The notes beneath the pieces are model-generated. The model did no database searches, was not told the DNA's origin, and saw nothing but the letters and a program-made list of their open reading frames with translations. The position numbers were made by a program, and so were the translations under genes. Positions 6,503-45,943 of a stretch of DNA of 45,943 nucleotides are shown here, piece by piece (position 1 is the stretch's first letter; each line of letters starts with the position of its first letter). The stretch is taken from assembly GCA_019637095.1 (NCBI GenBank), contig JAHBWG010000077.1, positions 1 to 45,943 on the forward strand, given 5' to 3'. This DNA is from Sandaracinaceae bacterium (GTDB lineage Bacteria > Myxococcota_A > Polyangia > Polyangiales > Sandaracinaceae).

Positions 6503-6591
6503 GGGTCCAACCTCCCCCTCCACCCTACCAGAGCGGCCGCGCGATGGCATCGTTGCGGTCCGGGCCGCGCTGAGGCACCAAGGCGTTGGAG

Positions 6592-8358
6592 ATGAGCGCC
6601 GGACCTCACGATGCCTCCGACCCGCTGCTCGGCGCGGTGCTCGGCGGACGCTATCGCGTCGAGCGCGTGCTCGGCGCGGGCGGCATGGGGACGGTGTACC
6701 GCGGCGTGCAGGAGCCGCTCGGCCGGCCGGTGGCGATCAAGGTGCTGCACGAGGCCTACGGCGTGGACGCGGAGCTGATCGCGCGCTTCCGCCGCGAGGC
6801 CGAGCTCGCCGCCTCGCTCCACCACCCGAACGTCGCGCAGGTCACCGACTTCGGCGTCGACGGCGGCCGCGCGTGGCTCGTGATGGACCTGCTCGAGGGG
6901 ACCTCGCTCCACGGCGCGATCGCGGCGGGCGCCCCGCTCGCGGCCGAGCGCGTGCGCCGCATCGCGACGCAGGTGCTCTCGGCGCTCGAGGCCGCGCACG
7001 CCCGCGGCGTGGTCCACCGCGACCTCAAGCCGGACAACGTGTTCCTCGTCGCGGTCTCCGGCATCGAGCTCGTGAAGCTGCTCGACTTCGGGATCGCGCG
7101 CCTCGCGGACCCGGAGCACGCGATGACGCAGACGGGGCGCGTGCTCGGGACGCCTGCCTACATGGCGCCCGAGCAGGCGCGCGGTCGGCCCGTGGGGCCG
7201 GCGACGGATCTGTTCGCGCTCGGCGTGGTGATGTACGAGGCGCTCGCCGGGCGGCGCCCGTTCGAGGGCGACAACTACCACGCGCTGATGTTCGCCATCG
7301 TGGAGCAGCGGCCCGCGCCGCTCGGCGACGCGGTGCCGCCGGCGCTCGCGGCGATCGTCGAGCGGGCGATGGCGAAGGATCCCGCGGAGCGTTTCGAGAG
7401 CGCGGCGGCGATGCGCGCGGCGCTCGACGCGCTCGGGCCCCTCGAGGAGGCGGCGACCTCGCCGGACGCCGCGCCCATCGAGCTGGCCTCGACGCTGACG
7501 CCCGAGGCGCTCGCGGCGCTCGGCAGCGTGGACGACGCGCTCGAAGCGGGGCGGGCGCGCGAGCGCGGGGGGGTGGACGAGGAGGCCGACGCGGCCGCGT
7601 CGGCGTTCGTCTCGGCGCCGCGCGCGCGCTCGACGGGACGCCGCGCCCTCCTCGTCGCGCTCGCGCTCCTCGCGCTCGCGACCGCGGGTGGCGTCGCCGC
7701 GCATCTGGCGGGGCGCGAGGCGGGGGGCGTCTCCGAGCCGCGCGCGACGTCGACGGCCGCGCTGGACGCGCTCGAGCCGATCGCTCCGCGCCCGCGCGAG
7801 GCGCTCGAGGCGGCCGCGTCCCCGGTGCCGGTCGACGCGCCGGGTGAGGAGCCGCTCGACGCGCCGGGTGAGGAGCCGCTCGACGCGCCGGGTGAGGAGC
7901 CGCTCGACGCGCCGGTCGCGCGCCGCGGGCGCGGCGCGAGCGCGGGATCCCGACCGCCGCGCGCCGCGCGCCGCTCGCCCGCGGGCCGGGTCACGCGCAT
8001 CCTGCCGTGCGCGAACGGTCGAGACATGCGGGAGGCCGGCGTCGTGCGCGCGGGCGAGCGGCTCTCGATCCCGCTCGTCTCGGTGCCCGGTGTGGGCGCG
8101 ACCGTGGTGCCCGAGGTGCGCCGCGTCCTCGCGGACGTGGTCGCGCCGCTGTCCGCGTGCCTCGTCGGGCACGCCGTAGAGGACGGACAGCGCTGGCAGC
8201 TCGACATCGAGCGCGGCGCCGTCACGCGCGCTGCGGCCGGCAGGTACTGTCCGCTCGACGCCGCCGCCGTCGCTTGCGCGGAGCGCGCCCTCGCGCGCCT
8301 CACCTTCCCCGCCGAGCCCGGCGCGTACACCGTGATGTTCTCGACGGCGCACCGCTAG
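6592..8358 (+). CDS. Membrane Ser/Thr protein kinase
   Basis: 588 residues from ATG 6592; a TTG two codons earlier (6586) is possible. The kinase domain spans about 15-280: GRYRVERVLGAGGMGTVYRG, VAIKVL, VVHRDLKPDNVFL, LLDFGIARL and YMAPEQ, with all catalytic residues present. One membrane helix lies at about 350-372 (LLVALALLALATAGGVAA). The linker holds three perfect 24-bp repeats plus part of a fourth (7834-7915), giving DAPGEEPL units. The last 120 residues form a separate domain with cysteines (LPCANGRDM, LSACLVG, GRYCPLD, VACAERAL) resembling the AgmX/TonB-like C-terminal domains found behind other myxobacterial kinases; that comparison is tentative. It is convergent with the GHL10 gene, with only four bases between the stop codons. 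Confidence 0.9.
   Translation: MSAGPHDASDPLLGAVLGGRYRVERVLGAGGMGTVYRGVQEPLGRPVAIKVLHEAYGVDAELIARFRREAELAASLHHPNVAQVTDFGVDGGRAWLVMDLLEGTSLHGAIAAGAPLAAERVRRIATQVLSALEAAHARGVVHRDLKPDNVFLVAVSGIELVKLLDFGIARLADPEHAMTQTGRVLGTPAYMAPEQARGRPVGPATDLFALGVVMYEALAGRRPFEGDNYHALMFAIVEQRPAPLGDAVPPALAAIVERAMAKDPAERFESAAAMRAALDALGPLEEAATSPDAAPIELASTLTPEALAALGSVDDALEAGRARERGGVDEEADAAASAFVSAPRARSTGRRALLVALALLALATAGGVAAHLAGREAGGVSEPRATSTAALDALEPIAPRPREALEAAASPVPVDAPGEEPLDAPGEEPLDAPGEEPLDAPVARRGRGASAGSRPPRAARRSPAGRVTRILPCANGRDMREAGVVRAGERLSIPLVSVPGVGATVVPEVRRVLADVVAPLSACLVGHAVEDGQRWQLDIERGAVTRAAAGRYCPLDAAAVACAERALARLTFPAEPGAYTVMFSTAHR
7834..7915 (+). repeat. 24-bp tandem repeat within kinase gene linker
   Basis: Perfect copies lie at 7834-7857, 7858-7881 and 7882-7905, with a partial copy to 7915. 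Each encodes DAPGEEPL in the extracytoplasmic linker. Perfect identity at DNA level suggests recent slippage, so copy number may differ between strains. Confidence 0.85.
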
Positions 8359-36559: not shown

Positions 36560-36607
36560 GATCGCATGCTGATAATCCGGTCAGCCGTCCCGGCGCAAGC
36601 CTCACGT

Positions 36608-36770
36608 GACGGCGAGCGCCTCGTCGCCGGGCTCGGCGGGTCGACCGGGCGGCCGAGCGCCGCCTCCTGGCGCGCGTCGCGGCATCGATCGCGGCGAGCG
36701 TCGCGGCGCCCGCGCCGGCGCGCGCGGCGAGCGGGCGCCCCGCGATTGGGCGCGGAGCACGGCGGCGCCG
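36608..36770 (-). pseudogene. Decayed partial copy of the pepP locus
   Basis: Bases 36608-36740 align with 30955-31090 inside pepP with only about seven substitutions and gaps of 1 and 4 bases. Bases 36742-36770 align with 31418-31446, just upstream of pepP, with one mismatch. About 330 bases between the two parts are missing. The gaps break the reading frame, though a trace such as GAGAATLAAIDAATRAR can still be read on the minus strand. It is therefore a deleted duplicate of the aminopeptidase locus, now forming most of the spacer between the TPR gene and the next kinase. Confidence 0.85.
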
Positions 36771-36773
36771 GGC

Positions 36774-36779
36774 TATGAT
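36774..36779 (+). promoter_or_regulatory. -10-like TATGAT before the kinase gene
   Basis: TATGAT ends nine bases before the ATG at 36789, just after the pepP remnant. It matches the -10 consensus (TATAAT) at five of six places. There is no Shine-Dalgarno sequence between it and the ATG. Confidence 0.5.
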
Positions 36780-36788
36780 GGCCCCGCG

Positions 36789-38468
36789 ATGAGCGGCCCG
36801 GTCAGCAGAGTCCAGCACGGCGAGGACCCGATGATCGGGCGCGTCATCGACGAGCGCTACCGCGTCCTGCGCCAGCTCGGCGAGGGCGGGATCGGCCGCG
36901 TCTACGTCGCGCAGCACCTGCGGCTCGGGCGCGAGGTCGCGATCAAGACGCTCCTCACGCGCTACGAGAGCATCCCCGTCCTCAAGGAGCGCTTCACGCG
37001 CGAGGCCGCCGCGCTCGCGTCGCTGAACCACCCGAACATCGTCACCGTCACCGACTTCGGCGTCGACGACGGGACGCCCTACCTCGTGATGGAGCTGCTC
37101 GCGGGCGAGGACCTCGCGGCGCTGATCGAGCGGGGCGAGCCGCTCGCGCCGCAGCGCGTGATGCGCATCGTCCGCCAGATGGTCCGCGCGCTCGCGTACG
37201 CGCACGAGCAGAAGCTCGTCCACCGTGATCTCAAGCCGCACAACGTGTTCGTGCGCGCGCTCGGCCCGTACGACGATCACGTCGAGGTGCTCGACTTCGG
37301 GCTCGCGCGCTTCCTCTCCGACGCGTGGAAGAGCGCGCCCAAGCTCACGGCGCAAGGCGCCTTGATCGGGACACCTGCGTACATGGCCCCCGAGCAGGCG
37401 TCGGGGCAGGACGTCGACGCGACGGCGGACATCTACGCGTCGGGGTGCGTGCTCTTCGAGGCGCTCACCGGACGCCGCGTGTTCGAGGGCAAGACCCAGG
37501 CGGACATCATGCGCGCGCACATGCTCACCGACGCGCCCACGCTGCGCGAGGCGGATCCGGGCCTCGCGCCGAGCCCCGCGCTCGACGCGCTCGTCGCGCG
37601 CTGCCTCGAGAAGAGCCCCTCGCGCCGGTACCCGAACGGCCGCGCGCTGCTCGAGGCGCTCGACGCGCTCGGCTGGGATCCCGTCCAGCGCGTCGGACCG
37701 CGCCCGCGCCACGAGGGCGTCGCCCCCTCTGCGATCGCGCCGACGCAGACGTCCACGCGTCCGTCCGGGCCGCTGCCCGCGCAGCCGCACGCGTCCGCCG
37801 GCGCGCCCGCGAACAGCGCGCCGATCGAGCTGCCGACGCGGCGGCTGCCGTGGATCCTCGGCGCGTCGGTCGCCGCCGTGCTGCTCGTCGGGCTCGGCGC
37901 GGGCGGCGTCTACGTGGCGCTCCGCGTCGTCGCGCCTCCCCACCCCCACGCGGTGCCGCTCCCCGCGCCGGTCCAGCTCCCCGTGCCCGACCTGCCGAGC
38001 GTCCCGCCACCCGTCGAGCGGCCGCCCGCGCGCGAGCCGTTCGCCGTCGCGGCGGAGGTCCCCGAGGCGCTGCGCCCGGTCCTCGCCGAGCTCGACGCGG
38101 GCCGCGGGACCTGGCGCGCGCAGATCTCGACGATCAGCCGCTACCAGAGCGCGCACCGCGACGATCCGCTCCCTGCGCTGCTGCTGGGTCGCATCTACAC
38201 GCAGGAAGGGCTCTTCGACCCCGCGCTCACGCAGTACGACGCCGCGTACACGCTCGATGCGTCGGTGCGCGGCGATCCGTCGATGCGCCGCGACCTGATC
38301 CGCATCGCGCGCGACGAGGCGCAGCACGGCAAGGCGGGCGCGCTCATCCGCGACGCGTGGGGCCGCGAGGCGGTCGGCGAGATCGACGCCCAGCTCAGGT
38401 CCGCGGCGATGGGCGCCGACGAGCGCGCGCGGCTCACCGAGCTGCGCGAGTACCTCGCGACGCGCTGA
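36789..38468 (+). CDS. Membrane Ser/Thr protein kinase
   Basis: 559 residues from ATG 36789. The kinase domain spans about 18-290: DERYRVLRQLGEGGIGRVYV, VAIKTLL, KLVHRDLKPHNVFV, EVLDFGLARFL and YMAPEQASGQD; catalytic residues intact. A Pro/Ala linker leads to one membrane helix at about 354-378 (ILGASVAAVLLVGLGAGGVY) and a second Pro-rich linker. The last 140 residues are helical (QISTISRYQSAHRDDPLPAL, YTQEGLFDPALTQYDAAYTL) and look like a TPR-type domain placed outside the cytoplasm. It is divergent from the Hsp70 operon; control of that operon is possible but not shown. Confidence 0.92.
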   Translation: MSGPVSRVQHGEDPMIGRVIDERYRVLRQLGEGGIGRVYVAQHLRLGREVAIKTLLTRYESIPVLKERFTREAAALASLNHPNIVTVTDFGVDDGTPYLVMELLAGEDLAALIERGEPLAPQRVMRIVRQMVRALAYAHEQKLVHRDLKPHNVFVRALGPYDDHVEVLDFGLARFLSDAWKSAPKLTAQGALIGTPAYMAPEQASGQDVDATADIYASGCVLFEALTGRRVFEGKTQADIMRAHMLTDAPTLREADPGLAPSPALDALVARCLEKSPSRRYPNGRALLEALDALGWDPVQRVGPRPRHEGVAPSAIAPTQTSTRPSGPLPAQPHASAGAPANSAPIELPTRRLPWILGASVAAVLLVGLGAGGVYVALRVVAPPHPHAVPLPAPVQLPVPDLPSVPPPVERPPAREPFAVAAEVPEALRPVLAELDAGRGTWRAQISTISRYQSAHRDDPLPALLLGRIYTQEGLFDPALTQYDAAYTLDASVRGDPSMRRDLIRIARDEAQHGKAGALIRDAWGREAVGEIDAQLRSAAMGADERARLTELREYLATR

Positions 38469-41779: not shown

Positions 41780-43342
41780 TCAGCCGCAGTAGCCGCCGCC
41801 GCAGCGCAGGCCCTCGGGGCACGCGAGCCGCTCGCCGCCGCACGCGATCGGCGCGCACTCGGCGAACGGGACGCACGGGCCCCAGCAGTGGTCGATCACC
41901 GACGGAACCTCGCCGGCCGAGCACGTGGGCGGGAGCGCGCGGCACCAGACCTCGTTCGGATCGCAGCTCGTCGCGCCCGCGCTCGGGCAGTGCGCGCGCG
42001 CGGCGCGGCACTCTCGCTCGCTCGCGTAGAGCGCGTCGCACGAGGCGCCGTCGCACGAGCAGCGGACCACCTCCTCGCACGCGCCGCCGGTCCAGCGCCA
42101 GCCGTACGAGCGCGTCGGGCCGCGGCAGTCGCCGAGCGGGAGCTCCTGCTCGGCGCAGCTCGCGCAGCCGGCGTAGGCCCGCGCGCACGCCTCGACGCTC
42201 TCGAACAGCGCGCCGCAGTCGGCGCCGACGCACTCGCAGCCGCCGAGCGAGACGCACTGCGTGCCGTCCCACGCCGCGCCGAGGTAGAGGCGGCAGAGCC
42301 CGTCGCCGCGCGCGTCCTGCGGCTCGCACCCACCCGGCTCGGGCGTGACGCACGCGCCGTAGGTGCGCAGGCAGGCGTCCTCGGTCTCGAAGAGCGCGTC
42401 GCAGTCGGCGCCGAGGCACTCGCAGCCGCTCGCGACGGCGCAGCGCGCGCCGTCGAAGACCCAGCCGAGCGCGAGGCGGCAGAGCCCGTCGCCGCGCGCG
42501 TCCTGCGGCTCGCACGCGCCGGGCTCGGGCGTGACGCACGCGCCGTAGGCGCGCAGGCAGGCGTCCTCGGTCTCGAAGAGCGCGTCGCAGTCGGCGCCGA
42601 GGCACTCGCAGCCGCTCGCGACGGTGCAGTGCGCGCCGTCGAAGACCCAGCCGAGCGCGAGGCGGCAGAGCCCGTCGCCGCGCGCGTCCTGCGGCTCGCA
42701 GGCGCCGGGGCTCGGCGCGAGGCACTCGGCGTAGCGCAGCTCGCAGTCCTCGATGGACTCGAAGAGCGAGCTGCACGCCGTGCCCACGCACTCGCAGCCG
42801 CCGACGGTGACGCAGCGCGCTCCGTCCCACGCGACGCCGAGGAGGCGTCGGCAGGCGCCCTCACCGCGCGCGTCCTGCGCGTCGCACGGCGCCGGTGTCG
42901 GCGCCGGCGTCACGCACGCGGCGTACGTCTGCGCGCACGCGGTCTCGCTCGAGAAGACCGCGTCGCAGTCGGCGCCGAGGCACTCGCAGCCGCCGAGCGT
43001 CACGCACGCCTCTCCGTCGAACGCCCACCCGAGGAGCAGGCGACAGAGCCCGTCGCCGCGCGCGTCCTGCGCCACGCACTCGCCTGGCGGCGGCGTGAGG
43101 CATTCGGCGTAGCCGGCCTCGCAGCGCTCGACCGACTCGAAGAGCGCAGCGCAGTCCGCGCCCGCGCACTCGCAGCCGGAGATCGCGACGCAGGCGGCGC
43201 CGTCCCAGGCGACGCCGATCACCGCGCGGCACGCGCCTTCGCCGCGAGCGTCCTGGGGCGCGCACGGGCGCGGATCGGGGCTCGCCTGGTAGCAGCCGGC
43301 GAGGATCGTGGGGGCGAGCAGAAGCAAGAGCGTGGGTCGCAT
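41780..43342 (-). CDS. Lipoprotein with seven tandem Kunitz-like cysteine domains
   Basis: 520 residues from ATG 43342; GGAGGGAG is just upstream. Signal LLLLLAPTILAGC (lipobox LAGC). Seven units of about 60 residues follow, with the pattern C-x-xQDARGxGxC, WDGxxC, GCECxGADC, LFExxxxC, YxxC. Spacing and the aromatic/Asp position recall Kunitz inhibitors, with an extra CxC pair; this is tentative. Six units are close copies; the seventh has diverged (EQELPLGDCRGPT). Units 4 and 5 are almost identical at DNA level. A cysteine-rich C-terminal module follows (CGGERLACPEGLRCGGGYC). Likely displayed on the surface; protease inhibition is a hypothesis. Confidence 0.85.
   Translation of the reverse strand: MRPTLLLLLAPTILAGCYQASPDPRPCAPQDARGEGACRAVIGVAWDGAACVAISGCECAGADCAALFESVERCEAGYAECLTPPPGECVAQDARGDGLCRLLLGWAFDGEACVTLGGCECLGADCDAVFSSETACAQTYAACVTPAPTPAPCDAQDARGEGACRRLLGVAWDGARCVTVGGCECVGTACSSLFESIEDCELRYAECLAPSPGACEPQDARGDGLCRLALGWVFDGAHCTVASGCECLGADCDALFETEDACLRAYGACVTPEPGACEPQDARGDGLCRLALGWVFDGARCAVASGCECLGADCDALFETEDACLRTYGACVTPEPGGCEPQDARGDGLCRLYLGAAWDGTQCVSLGGCECVGADCGALFESVEACARAYAGCASCAEQELPLGDCRGPTRSYGWRWTGGACEEVVRCSCDGASCDALYASERECRAARAHCPSAGATSCDPNEVWCRALPPTCSAGEVPSVIDHCWGPCVPFAECAPIACGGERLACPEGLRCGGGYCG
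42325..42696 (-). repeat. 186-bp tandem repeat within the Kunitz-like lipoprotein gene
   Basis: Positions 42325-42510 and 42511-42696 differ by only a handful of bases; flanking units share the same 186-base phase with more changes. Each unit equals 62 codons. A recent in-frame duplication is the simplest explanation. Confidence 0.85.
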
Positions 43343-43424: not shown

Positions 43425-44093
43425 TCAGCGCGTGCCGGCCCCGAACAGGGTGACGAAGCGCTGCTCGAGCGCGCCCTCGCGCACGTCGAGCCGCAAGACC
43501 TCTTCCTCGATGCGATCGGCGTCCGGCGCGAAGCGCACCCGCACGCTCGCGACCGCGCCAGGCGCGATGCGGGCCGGGGCGTCGAGCACCTCGAAGCGCG
43601 ACGGACCGCGCAGGAGCGCCTGCTCGATCAGGACCTCGCCCGCGCAGTCGTTCGCGAGCTCGACGCTCGCCTCGCCGGTCGCGCCGATCGGCGTGTCCGG
43701 CAGGCCCTGCTCGAGCGGCGCGCGCAGGCACGCCGGGCGCGGCGCGAGGACCACGAGCCCGGCGTCGAGCGTGATGTCGACGATCGGCCCGCGCGCGCCG
43801 TCGAGCTGCGGCTGCAGCCGGTGCCGCCCCCACTCGAGCGCGACCTCGAAGCTCCCGTCGGCGCGCGGCGTCACGAGCACCGGATCGCGCGTCGCGTCGA
43901 GCGGGGTGATCCGCAGCGTCGCCTCCGGCGGATCGATCGCGCCGACGCCGCCGACGAGATCGTTGAACGAGCCGCGCGTGGTGCCGCTCGCGAGCCGATC
44001 GGGGTCGAGCAGCGGCGGGTTCGGCTGCGGCGTCGCGACGCACGCGGGCAGCGCGAGCAGCGCGGCGAACGAGAGTGAGCGGAGGAAGCGCAC
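43425..44093 (-). CDS. Lipoprotein with Ig-like domain (HYDIN/ASPM type)
   Basis: 222 residues from GTG 44093. Signal SLSFAALLALPAC (lipobox LPAC). The C-terminal 100 residues show a beta-sandwich of the kind found in ASPM/SPD-2/HYDIN-like domains: EASVELANDCAGEVLIEQAL, PARIAPGAVASVRVRFAPD and LEQRFVTLFGAG. Two cysteines (PACLRAP and ANDCAGE) may pair. Probably an envelope structural or binding protein. A TAGACT element lies six bases before the start codon. It is divergent from the kinase-ATPase gene. Confidence 0.78.
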   Translation of the reverse strand: MRFLRSLSFAALLALPACVATPQPNPPLLDPDRLASGTTRGSFNDLVGGVGAIDPPEATLRITPLDATRDPVLVTPRADGSFEVALEWGRHRLQPQLDGARGPIVDITLDAGLVVLAPRPACLRAPLEQGLPDTPIGATGEASVELANDCAGEVLIEQALLRGPSRFEVLDAPARIAPGAVASVRVRFAPDADRIEEEVLRLDVREGALEQRFVTLFGAGTR

Positions 44094-44105: not shown

Positions 44106-44164
44106 CGCAAGGCCCGGGCCGCGGCGAGCCGAGCGGCCGGAGCGCGCGGAGGCGGCGCGAGATT

Positions 44165-44201
44165 GTACCGCATGGTACGGTTGTGGTGTACCAGTGGTAC
44201 A
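44165..44201. promoter_or_regulatory. Twin GTACC...GGTAC palindromes over a kinase start codon
   Basis: GTACC-GCAT-GGTAC (44165-44178) and TGTACC-AGT-GGTACA (44187-44201) have centres about 22 bases apart, roughly two helix turns. The second covers the GTG start codon at 44194. The stretch is richer in A and T than its surroundings. Such paired sites are typical of operators for dimeric repressors; the protein is unknown. Confidence 0.6.
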
Positions 44202-45943
44202 TATCGATCCGGAGCTCGTCGCCGGCCGTTACCGGCCGCTCCGCCCGCTGGGCGAGGGGGGCGCGGGGGACGTCTGCGCCGCGCTCGACGAGCTCGCGGG
44301 CGGCGAGGTCGCGCTCAAGCGCGTGCCCCTCGACGCGCCGGACCTTCGCGCCGCGTTCCGCGCGGAGCTCGGCGCGCTGCGCGGCCTCGCGCACCCGCAC
44401 CTCGCGCGGCTCCTCGACGCGGGCGTCGAGGGCGCGCGCGGCTGGATGGTGGCGCCGCTCCTCGACGGCGCGGAGCTCTCGGCCTGCGCCCGCTCGTGGG
44501 AGCGCGCCGCGCCCGCGCTCGCCGACGCGCTCGCGGCTCTGCACTGCCTGCACCGCAACGGCATCTTGCACGGCGACTTCAAGCCGGCGAACGTCCTCGT
44601 CGGCGCCGGCCGCGCCACGCTCATCGACCTGAGCTGCGCGCGCTCGATCGATCCGCGCACGCGCGCGGCGCCGGCCGCGCCGCCGCGCGGGACGATCGGC
44701 TTCGTCGCCCCCGAGGTGCTGCGCGGCGAGCCCGCGGACGTGCGCGCCGACCTCTACGGCGTCGGCCGTACGATCGAGGCGCTCGGGCTGCGCCTGCCGG
44801 CGCGCGTGCGGCGGCTCGTCGAGCGGCTCGTGGCGCGCGCGCCGCACGCGCGGCCGGCGGACGTCCTCGAGGTCTTCGACGTGTGTGACTGGCCGCCGCC
44901 GACGCACGGTCCCGCCGACGCGGCGCCGACCCTCGGGCGCGAGGCGCTCCTGTGCGCGCTCGACGACGCGGCCGCGCGGCTGGCGCGCGCAGAGCCGGGC
45001 CCGCGCGTGATCACGCTCCGAGGCCCACCCGGCGCCGGGCGGACGCGCCTGCTCGACGAGCTGCGCTGGGGCGCGCCGGTGCGCGTCGAGCCGGTCGTCG
45101 CGGGCGACGTGCGCCGCGCGCTGCGCCGCCTCGCGGGCGCGCCGGTCGAGGACGAGCCCGCGGTGATCGCGTTCGTCCGCGCGCTCCGCGCGGGCGGTGC
45201 GCACGGTGCGCCGCGCGTGCTCGCGATCGACGACCTGCACCTCGCCGGCGCGCGCGAGCGCGCGCTCGTCGCCGCGCTCGCCGCGCTGCTCGAGCCGACC
45301 GACCCGCTGCTCCTCGCCGCCACGCTCGTCGACGGCGCGCCGGGGCTCGACGCGGCGCGCGAGCTCCGGGTCGAGCCGCTCGACGAGCGCGCCGCGCGCG
45401 CGTGGCTCGAGGGGCGCGTGCCCGCGGCCGAGCTCGCCCGCGTGCTGCGTGAGACCCGCGGCCTCCCGGGCGAGATCGCGGCGGCCCTGCGCGGCGCGAG
45501 CGAGCACCGCGCGGGCGACCTGGCCGACCTGTCCGACGCGGCGCGGGCGCGGCTCGCGCGCCTCGTCGCGGGCGGGGAGGTGGTCCCCGACGAAGCGAGC
45601 GCCGCGCTCGAGGCGCGCGGCCTCGCGCGCTTCGAGCAAGGGAACTTGCGCCTCGCGCGCCGCGCCGACGCCGCCTGGCTCCGCGAGGCGCTCGGCCCGC
45701 ACGCGCTGCGCGAGGCCCACGCCGAGCTCGCTCGCGAGGTGGCTCCGTCGCGTCGCGTCGCGCACTGGCTCGGCGCGGGCGAGCGCGCCTCGGCGGAGGC
45801 CGCCGTGCTCGAGGGCGCGCTCGACCCGGACGAAGGCGACGCGGCCGCGGCGGTCGCCGCGATCACGGAGCGCTGGGACGTCGCGCTCGCCTGCGCGCGC
45901 GCGCTGTCCGACGCGGGGAGGCCCGCCGACGCGCTGCGCGCGC
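44194..45943 (+). CDS. Ser/Thr kinase fused to an AAA-type ATPase (3' end outside window)
   Basis: 583 codons are visible from GTG 44194. The kinase domain spans about 10-240: GRYRPLRPLGEGGAGDVCAA, VALKRVPLD, ILHGDFKPANVLV and TLIDLSCARS, then GTIGFVAPEVLRG. The catalytic Asp, Asn and ATP lysine remain, but HRD reads HGD and DFG reads DLS. Residues about 270 onward hold an ATPase of the AAA_16/Orc-like kind with Walker A (LRGPPGAGRTRLLDEL) and Walker B (RVLAIDDLHLAG). This kinase-ATPase build is known from large myxobacterial signalling proteins that usually end in TPRs, and helical repeats appear to begin near the edge. Its start lies within the twin palindromes. Confidence 0.85.
   Translation, partial: MVHIDPELVAGRYRPLRPLGEGGAGDVCAALDELAGGEVALKRVPLDAPDLRAAFRAELGALRGLAHPHLARLLDAGVEGARGWMVAPLLDGAELSACARSWERAAPALADALAALHCLHRNGILHGDFKPANVLVGAGRATLIDLSCARSIDPRTRAAPAAPPRGTIGFVAPEVLRGEPADVRADLYGVGRTIEALGLRLPARVRRLVERLVARAPHARPADVLEVFDVCDWPPPTHGPADAAPTLGREALLCALDDAAARLARAEPGPRVITLRGPPGAGRTRLLDELRWGAPVRVEPVVAGDVRRALRRLAGAPVEDEPAVIAFVRALRAGGAHGAPRVLAIDDLHLAGARERALVAALAALLEPTDPLLLAATLVDGAPGLDAARELRVEPLDERAARAWLEGRVPAAELARVLRETRGLPGEIAAALRGASEHRAGDLADLSDAARARLARLVAGGEVVPDEASAALEARGLARFEQGNLRLARRADAAWLREALGPHALREAHAELAREVAPSRRVAHWLGAGERASAEAAVLEGALDPDEGDAAAAVAAITERWDVALACARALSDAGRPADALRA

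Follow-up and report, generated by a model that had tools for sequence, protein, structure and literature searches.

The locus raises two questions: why two near-identical palindromes lie at the very start of a kinase gene, one of them over the initiation codon, and which protein reads them. The window, that is, the whole stretch of 45,943 nucleotides analyzed here, is an entire contig (C173) of a Sandaracinaceae genome, and the kinase gene runs off the contig end.

The palindrome pair at the kinase start codon

The following two sites were read directly from the DNA and recovered by a pattern scan that was compared with shuffles:

44164..44179: palindrome 1, TGTACCGCATGGTACG, with the core GTACC GCAT GGTAC at 44165-44178
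44187..44201: palindrome 2, TGTACCAGTGGTACA, with the core GTACC-N3-GGTAC at 44188-44200

The outermost base pair of palindrome 1 is mismatched, and palindrome 2 is perfect over 15 bp, its centre at 44194 coinciding with the G of the kinase GTG. With the centres at 44171.5 and 44194, the distance between the sites is 22.5 bp, or about two helix turns. An earlier note had described paired near-identical palindromes about two turns apart, one over the GTG, and both the coordinates and the centres were confirmed.

The pattern GTACC-N0-14-GGTAC occurred in the window at these two sites only, while 100 dinucleotide shuffles of the window contained 0.07 matches on average and none contained two. In the 9.25-Mb genome to which the window belongs (G000), the single sites (N3-4) numbered 9, as against 14 for a backwards control pattern, and the other seven all lay within long reading frames. 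Single sites are at chance level in this genome, and it is the pair that stands out. The exact pair was found once in this genome and in none of the 95 other relatives (96 genomes searched). The genome search for the same pair, proposed in the earlier note as the way to a regulon, thus gave none in the genome itself, and the idea of a genome-wide regulon of the palindrome was dropped there, the single sites being inside genes and no more frequent than expected.

The kinase gene and its probable missing half

The gene that begins within palindrome 2 is as follows:

44194..45943, plus strand: N-terminal part of a predicted kinase-fused sigma-54 activator, with Pkinase at aa 14-194 and an AAA_16-like region at aa 247-374, truncated at the end of the contig

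The frame has no start codon ahead of the GTG at 44194, and the N-terminus aligns with those of relatives to within about one residue. The Pfam match to Pkinase had an E value of 7.4e-24, and the match to AAA_16 was just below the cut-off (31.3 vs. 32.6 bits). The former label of kinase-ATPase therefore suits the visible part of the protein, but the protein is larger than the contig end allows one to see. Five full-length relatives were scanned with Pfam, including the closest one, a 55% identical orthologue in genome G001. Pkinase, GAF, Sigma54_activat with its lid, and HTH_8 were present in 5/5, AAA_16 was above the cut-off in four, and the TPR matches were weak to moderate. An N-terminal receiver domain, which is an NtrC-type trait, was absent from the matches listed for these five proteins (the first 25 for three of them), in which the kinase, AAA_16/TPR, and GAF parts occupy its place. 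The GAFTGA motif was kept in 40 of the 42 C-termini of related activators.

A second contig of the same genome, C88 (4021 bases), carries an open 529-aa fragment that also runs off the contig end (G000:C88:2431-4020, minus strand). It is 64% identical to aa 994-1530 of the G001 orthologue and contains GAF, Sigma54_activat (E 2.6e-67), and HTH_8 (E 4.2e-9). This fragment is the probable C-terminal half of the window kinase, which would leave about 390 aa between C173 and C88 absent. The full domain order was accordingly taken from Pfam for the relatives, and for the window protein it comprises the first two domains on the contig and the rest as predicted from C88. The features of a bEBP, namely the AAA+ activator domain with the GAFTGA loop and the C-terminal Fis-type HTH, were both present in the C88 fragment and the relatives, and Sigma54_activat and HTH_8 would belong to the window gene itself through the inferred link between C173 and C88. 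The genome also has one rpoN match, on C123, and a -24/-12 type promoter lies near the putative UAS, at 44107-44121.

The catalytic letters of the window kinase are present, but HGD replaces HRD and DLS replaces DFG, which is also the case in most relatives. HGD was found in all 43 kinase ORFs caught by the pattern (54 in all, window included, of which 11 escaped it). Of the 42 caught for the other motif, 41 have DLS or DLG. As judged by these letters, the related kinase ORFs are a distinct kinase subgroup. The AAA_16 Walker A motif GPPGAGRT (window 45022-45045) has Arg where Lys is usual; among the 48 kinase ORFs in which the pattern for this motif gave a match, Arg stands there in 27, window included. 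Two further kinase-like ORFs are located in the window, at 36606-38468, within which C173:36843-37472 matches the kinase, and at 6586-8358, which starts with the motif GGRYRVERVLGAGGMGTVY.

The divergent lipoprotein operon and its predicted sigma-54 promoter

On the other side of the palindromes, three features are found on the opposite strand:

44107..44121, minus strand: proposed sigma-54 promoter of the lipoprotein gene, CGGCCCGGGCCTTGC, GG-N10-GC, 9/11 consensus positions
43425..44093, minus strand: lipoprotein gene, the proposed target, 222 aa, with the lipobox-like ACVATPQPNPP
41780..43342, minus strand: gene for a tandem-repeat, Cys-rich putative lipoprotein, which follows on the same strand

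The lipoprotein gene is separated from the kinase GTG by a gap of 100 bp. No Pfam or NCBIfam family matched its product. Within the order, a profile built from 15 such proteins found matches in 67 of 183 genomes (E<=1e-6). Sixty related regions were fetched and examined together with the window. The kinase and the lipoprotein were on opposite strands in 53 of these 61 regions, on one strand in 1, and the pair was absent in 7. They were close and head-to-head in 42 regions, and in the other 11 opposite-strand regions the lipoprotein was more distant or its start was badly placed. The Cys-rich protein, which has tandem DARGxGxCR...GCECxGxDC repeats and no Pfam match, is probably encoded in the same operon as the lipoprotein; a similar Cys-rich gene also follows the lipoprotein in locus L076.

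Promoter candidates were scored against the sigma-54 consensus. The proposed promoter ends 13 nt ahead of the lipoprotein GTG, and its match is modest when taken alone, since 10 of 500 shuffles were as good, or 5 of 100 when GG/GC was not demanded. Among the first 16 divergent modules, 15 had GG-N10-GC at >=8/11 in the lipoprotein orientation, and 1 had it on the other strand. When one fixed 150-nt slice of all 42 modules was scanned with GG or GC not required, a promoter at >=9/11 was found in the lipoprotein orientation in 32 modules and on the other strand in 1 (4.2% of shuffles), being absent from the remaining 10; at >=8/11 these values were 41, 9, and 31.5%, respectively. The consensus used agrees with that in the consulted part of PMC4641369. 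For the kinase gene, a search for a sigma-70-like promoter gave none. In a related group of loci (L153, L155, L157, L161, and L162), the -12 element is TTGA instead of the usual TTGC.

Half-sites in related modules

The earlier note had made its proposal depend on conservation of the motif in relatives with the same gene, and such conservation was found. The G001 orthologue has TGCACCACTTGGTACA and TGTACCATTTGGTACA at the same place, with centres 22 bp apart, and its counterpart of palindrome 2 touches the GTG at the edge. The relative on G002:C447 has TGCACCACCTGGTACA plus one more half-site. Across the relatives, the same slice contains repeated TGTNNCA half-sites with letters that differ by clade, and more distant modules have TGTTCC, TGTCTC, or TGTATC half-sites instead, and these are often repeated in direct orientation every 10 bp or so. 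In 31 non-redundant modules (clusters), there were 95 TGTNTC/TGTNCC half-sites in the slice at the kinase start, compared with 7, 2, 4, 3, and 4 in five control slices. Clear half-sites were not seen in L176, L186, and L187. Two modules in one genome can differ in half-site type, each matching its own clade, as in G116, G181, and G174-G178. Therefore, one genome-wide factor does not explain them.

The half-sites were also in helical phase with the -24 element. In 22 non-redundant modules with intergenic DNA that is not alignable and a promoter at >=9/11, R was 0.57 at 10.5 bp, and none of 5000 random-phase draws was as high. When periods of 10.0-11.0 were tried, p was 0.0016 at 10.0 and 0/5000 draws reached the observed value at the others. 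The phase relative to the kinase start was weaker (R 0.33, p 0.02). A phase of this sort is expected of sites that act on a promoter through looping, and no other observation speaks as strongly for a role of the half-sites at the lipoprotein promoter; common ancestry of the distances may contribute to it.

The letters of the half-sites varied with those of the recognition helix. In a table clustered at 90%, with 5 of the 31 clusters left out, Ala at the variable helix position went with TGTNTC in 12 of 13 cases, and Thr, Met, or Asn with TGTNCC in 12 of 13 (Fisher 3.3e-5). On a tree built without the HTH, each character changes just three times, and two independent pairs of changes fall on supported branches. 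A single clade (support 97) unites the window with G001 and G002:C447, all with RMTLYRR and TGTACC. The association thus holds at the clade level only and is consistent with self-recognition. A residue-level recognition code as independent proof was given up, being strong as a table but not independent on the tree.

Proposed mechanism

From the domain content, promoter match, site conservation, and phasing, we infer binding and activation by a single protein, and from the position of palindrome 2 its autorepression. Our preferred explanation, to which we assign a probability of roughly 0.78, is that the pair is the UAS of the activator encoded by the same gene, which would drive the divergent lipoprotein operon and is predicted to repress its own gene. 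One polypeptide would combine a Ser/Thr kinase, an AAA_16-type ATPase, TPR repeats, GAF, a sigma-54 AAA+ activator, and a Fis-type HTH. Dimers of this HTH would occupy both palindromes, and the bound oligomer would loop about 45-75 bp to sigma-54 RNA polymerase at 44107-44121. Signals received via the kinase, ATPase/TPR, and GAF parts would release the AAA+ motor, upon which the activator would open the promoter of the lipoprotein and Cys-rich operon, as the promoter match and helical phasing suggest. Because palindrome 2 covers the GTG, an activator bound there would block the activator gene and limit its own synthesis, so that the position of the site points to negative autoregulation.

The earlier note had proposed a dimeric repressor on one face of the DNA. 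A dimer-type site on one face at the kinase start, conserved in relatives, agrees with our observations, but repression as the sole role does not. That note spoke of an unknown factor; we consider the C-terminal Fis HTH of the polypeptide that the gene itself encodes, a predicted sigma-54 enhancer-binding protein, to be the likeliest one.

Alternative explanations

The main rival assigns the pair to a TetR-family repressor whose gene lies elsewhere in the genome and which would bind it as an operator to repress the kinase gene; the earlier note had already named TetR among the candidate types. TetR-family operators of the form TGTACC-N4-GGTACA are nearly identical DNA, with two 16-bp palindromes about 23 bp apart in their commonest form among the matches listed. 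In G001, two such palindromes lie between the genes for a TetR and an SDR, and in G006 one exact and one diverged copy adjoin such a gene pair. A scan of genome contigs found at least 115 stretches with a close pair, many of them in Streptomyces; among the matches listed, the 37-bp form was present in 37 of the 79 loci read, and TetR_N in 11 of 19 nearby ORFs chosen by size and place (10 above the cut-off), the others of these 19 being cyclases, thioesterases, and the like. Since the same pair stands beside TetR genes in many bacteria, the motif alone cannot separate a TetR operator from an activator site. The window and the same-type loci L071, L076, and L155 contained no TetR-like ORF in a scan that detected its positive controls. 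An orthologue of the TetR of G001 and G006 is missing from the genome, where the best match reaches 30% identity, and none of the other exact sites there is intergenic. At this locus a sigma-54 promoter and an EBP gene accompany the sites, and related modules have TGTCTC, TGTTCC, or TGTATC in the same slot, in phase with a sigma-54 promoter. We consider a TetR operator unlikely. In G001, where both TetR-type and activator-type systems exist, cross-binding is possible.

The sites might also be a UAS for another activator with a similar Fis HTH rather than for the adjacent protein. At least one more such module is present in the genome (C13), and Fis-type HTHs can resemble one another. However, the sites adjoin the same activator clade in G000, G001, and G002, each module has one half-site type in genomes with two modules, and the genome holds no second copy of the pair, which makes this reading very improbable.

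Slightly less probable still is an effect at the RNA level, in which hairpins formed by the palindromes in the mRNA would mask the GTG and so govern translation. For the 78-nt RNA, a folding energy of -31.3 kcal/mol was computed (z -1.98; 6/200 shuffles as good), and the G001 RNA behaves alike (z -1.99; 9/200). This excess of stability is slight, however, and any DNA palindrome would yield it; the half-sites of many relatives are direct repeats, unable to pair with each other, and the phasing with the sigma-54 promoter would be left unexplained. Hairpin control of the kinase start was consequently regarded as weak. A ParB/parS-like reading of TGTnnCA-nn-TGnnACA was discarded because many relatives have the half-sites in direct repeat and because the half-site type goes with the module.

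Relation to known systems

NtrC sites have the form TGCACC-N5-GGTGCA, with paired palindromes read by a dimer of the C-terminal Fis-type HTH, and NtrC is autoregulated. The self-encoded activator proposed here resembles NtrC in the paired palindromes, the Fis-type HTH, the similar half-site letters, and the autoregulation, the last as predicted. It differs in the spacing of N3-N4 and in its apparent one-component design, with no receiver among the matches listed.

The closest arrangement is that of DVU3142/ohc in Desulfovibrio vulgaris, where, according to the part of PMC4641369 consulted, the EBP gene is divergent from its target operon. Both systems have a head-to-head EBP and target, a UAS and a sigma-54 promoter predicted comparatively, and a Fis-type HTH. 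In the system described here, a Ser/Thr kinase, ATPase, and TPR block would stand before the predicted GAF, sigma-54, and HTH parts, and the proposed target is a lipoprotein operon. The same part of that paper states that the largest share of promoters lies within 100 nt of the nearest EBP site. A divergent EBP and target with a shared UAS is thus a known design (PMC4641369, as far as consulted), which is found here with an unusual sensor and is widespread in the order. The consulted part of Francke et al. (PMC3162934) lists the EBP sensor types and links sigma-54 to the outside of the bacterial cell, with lipoproteins as one example, in agreement with the lipoprotein target. No description of kinase-fused EBPs in myxobacteria was found in the open papers searched, and they are not mentioned in the consulted parts of PMC12316311, PMC3162934, PMC4641369, PMC8538405, and PMC9138534.

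We give about even odds to a broader reading, namely that this is a widespread and apparently undescribed family in which one polypeptide (kinase, ATPase/TPR, GAF, sigma-54 motor, HTH) would switch one divergent surface-lipoprotein operon via its own start-codon UAS, and which would have diversified into paralogues with separate DNA codes that prevent cross-talk between parallel switches in one genome. The order has many kinases and activators whose wiring lacks an assignment. If the reading is true, a cis-site, a promoter, and a target operon would be assigned, from sequence alone, to a whole class of kinase-fused activators. The paralogue sets in single genomes (TGTACC, TGTTCC, TGTCTC, and TGTATC) would then expose the DNA code of the Fis-type HTH and its insulation, and the family would offer a direct test case for a Ser/Thr kinase domain that controls a sigma-54 motor in the same chain.

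Palindromes of the same sequence were also observed elsewhere. Divergent TetR and SDR genes surround them at G001:C1:5609718-5609782 (L103) and G006:C1:1917329 (L104). Paired GTACC/GGTAC sites were present on several contigs of single MAGs (L188, L189, L192, L209, L218, L222, L245, and L249); the genomes with such multi-contig palindromes include one Omnitrophota and one Bacteroidales isolate, and the sites are perhaps a repeat or a regulon.
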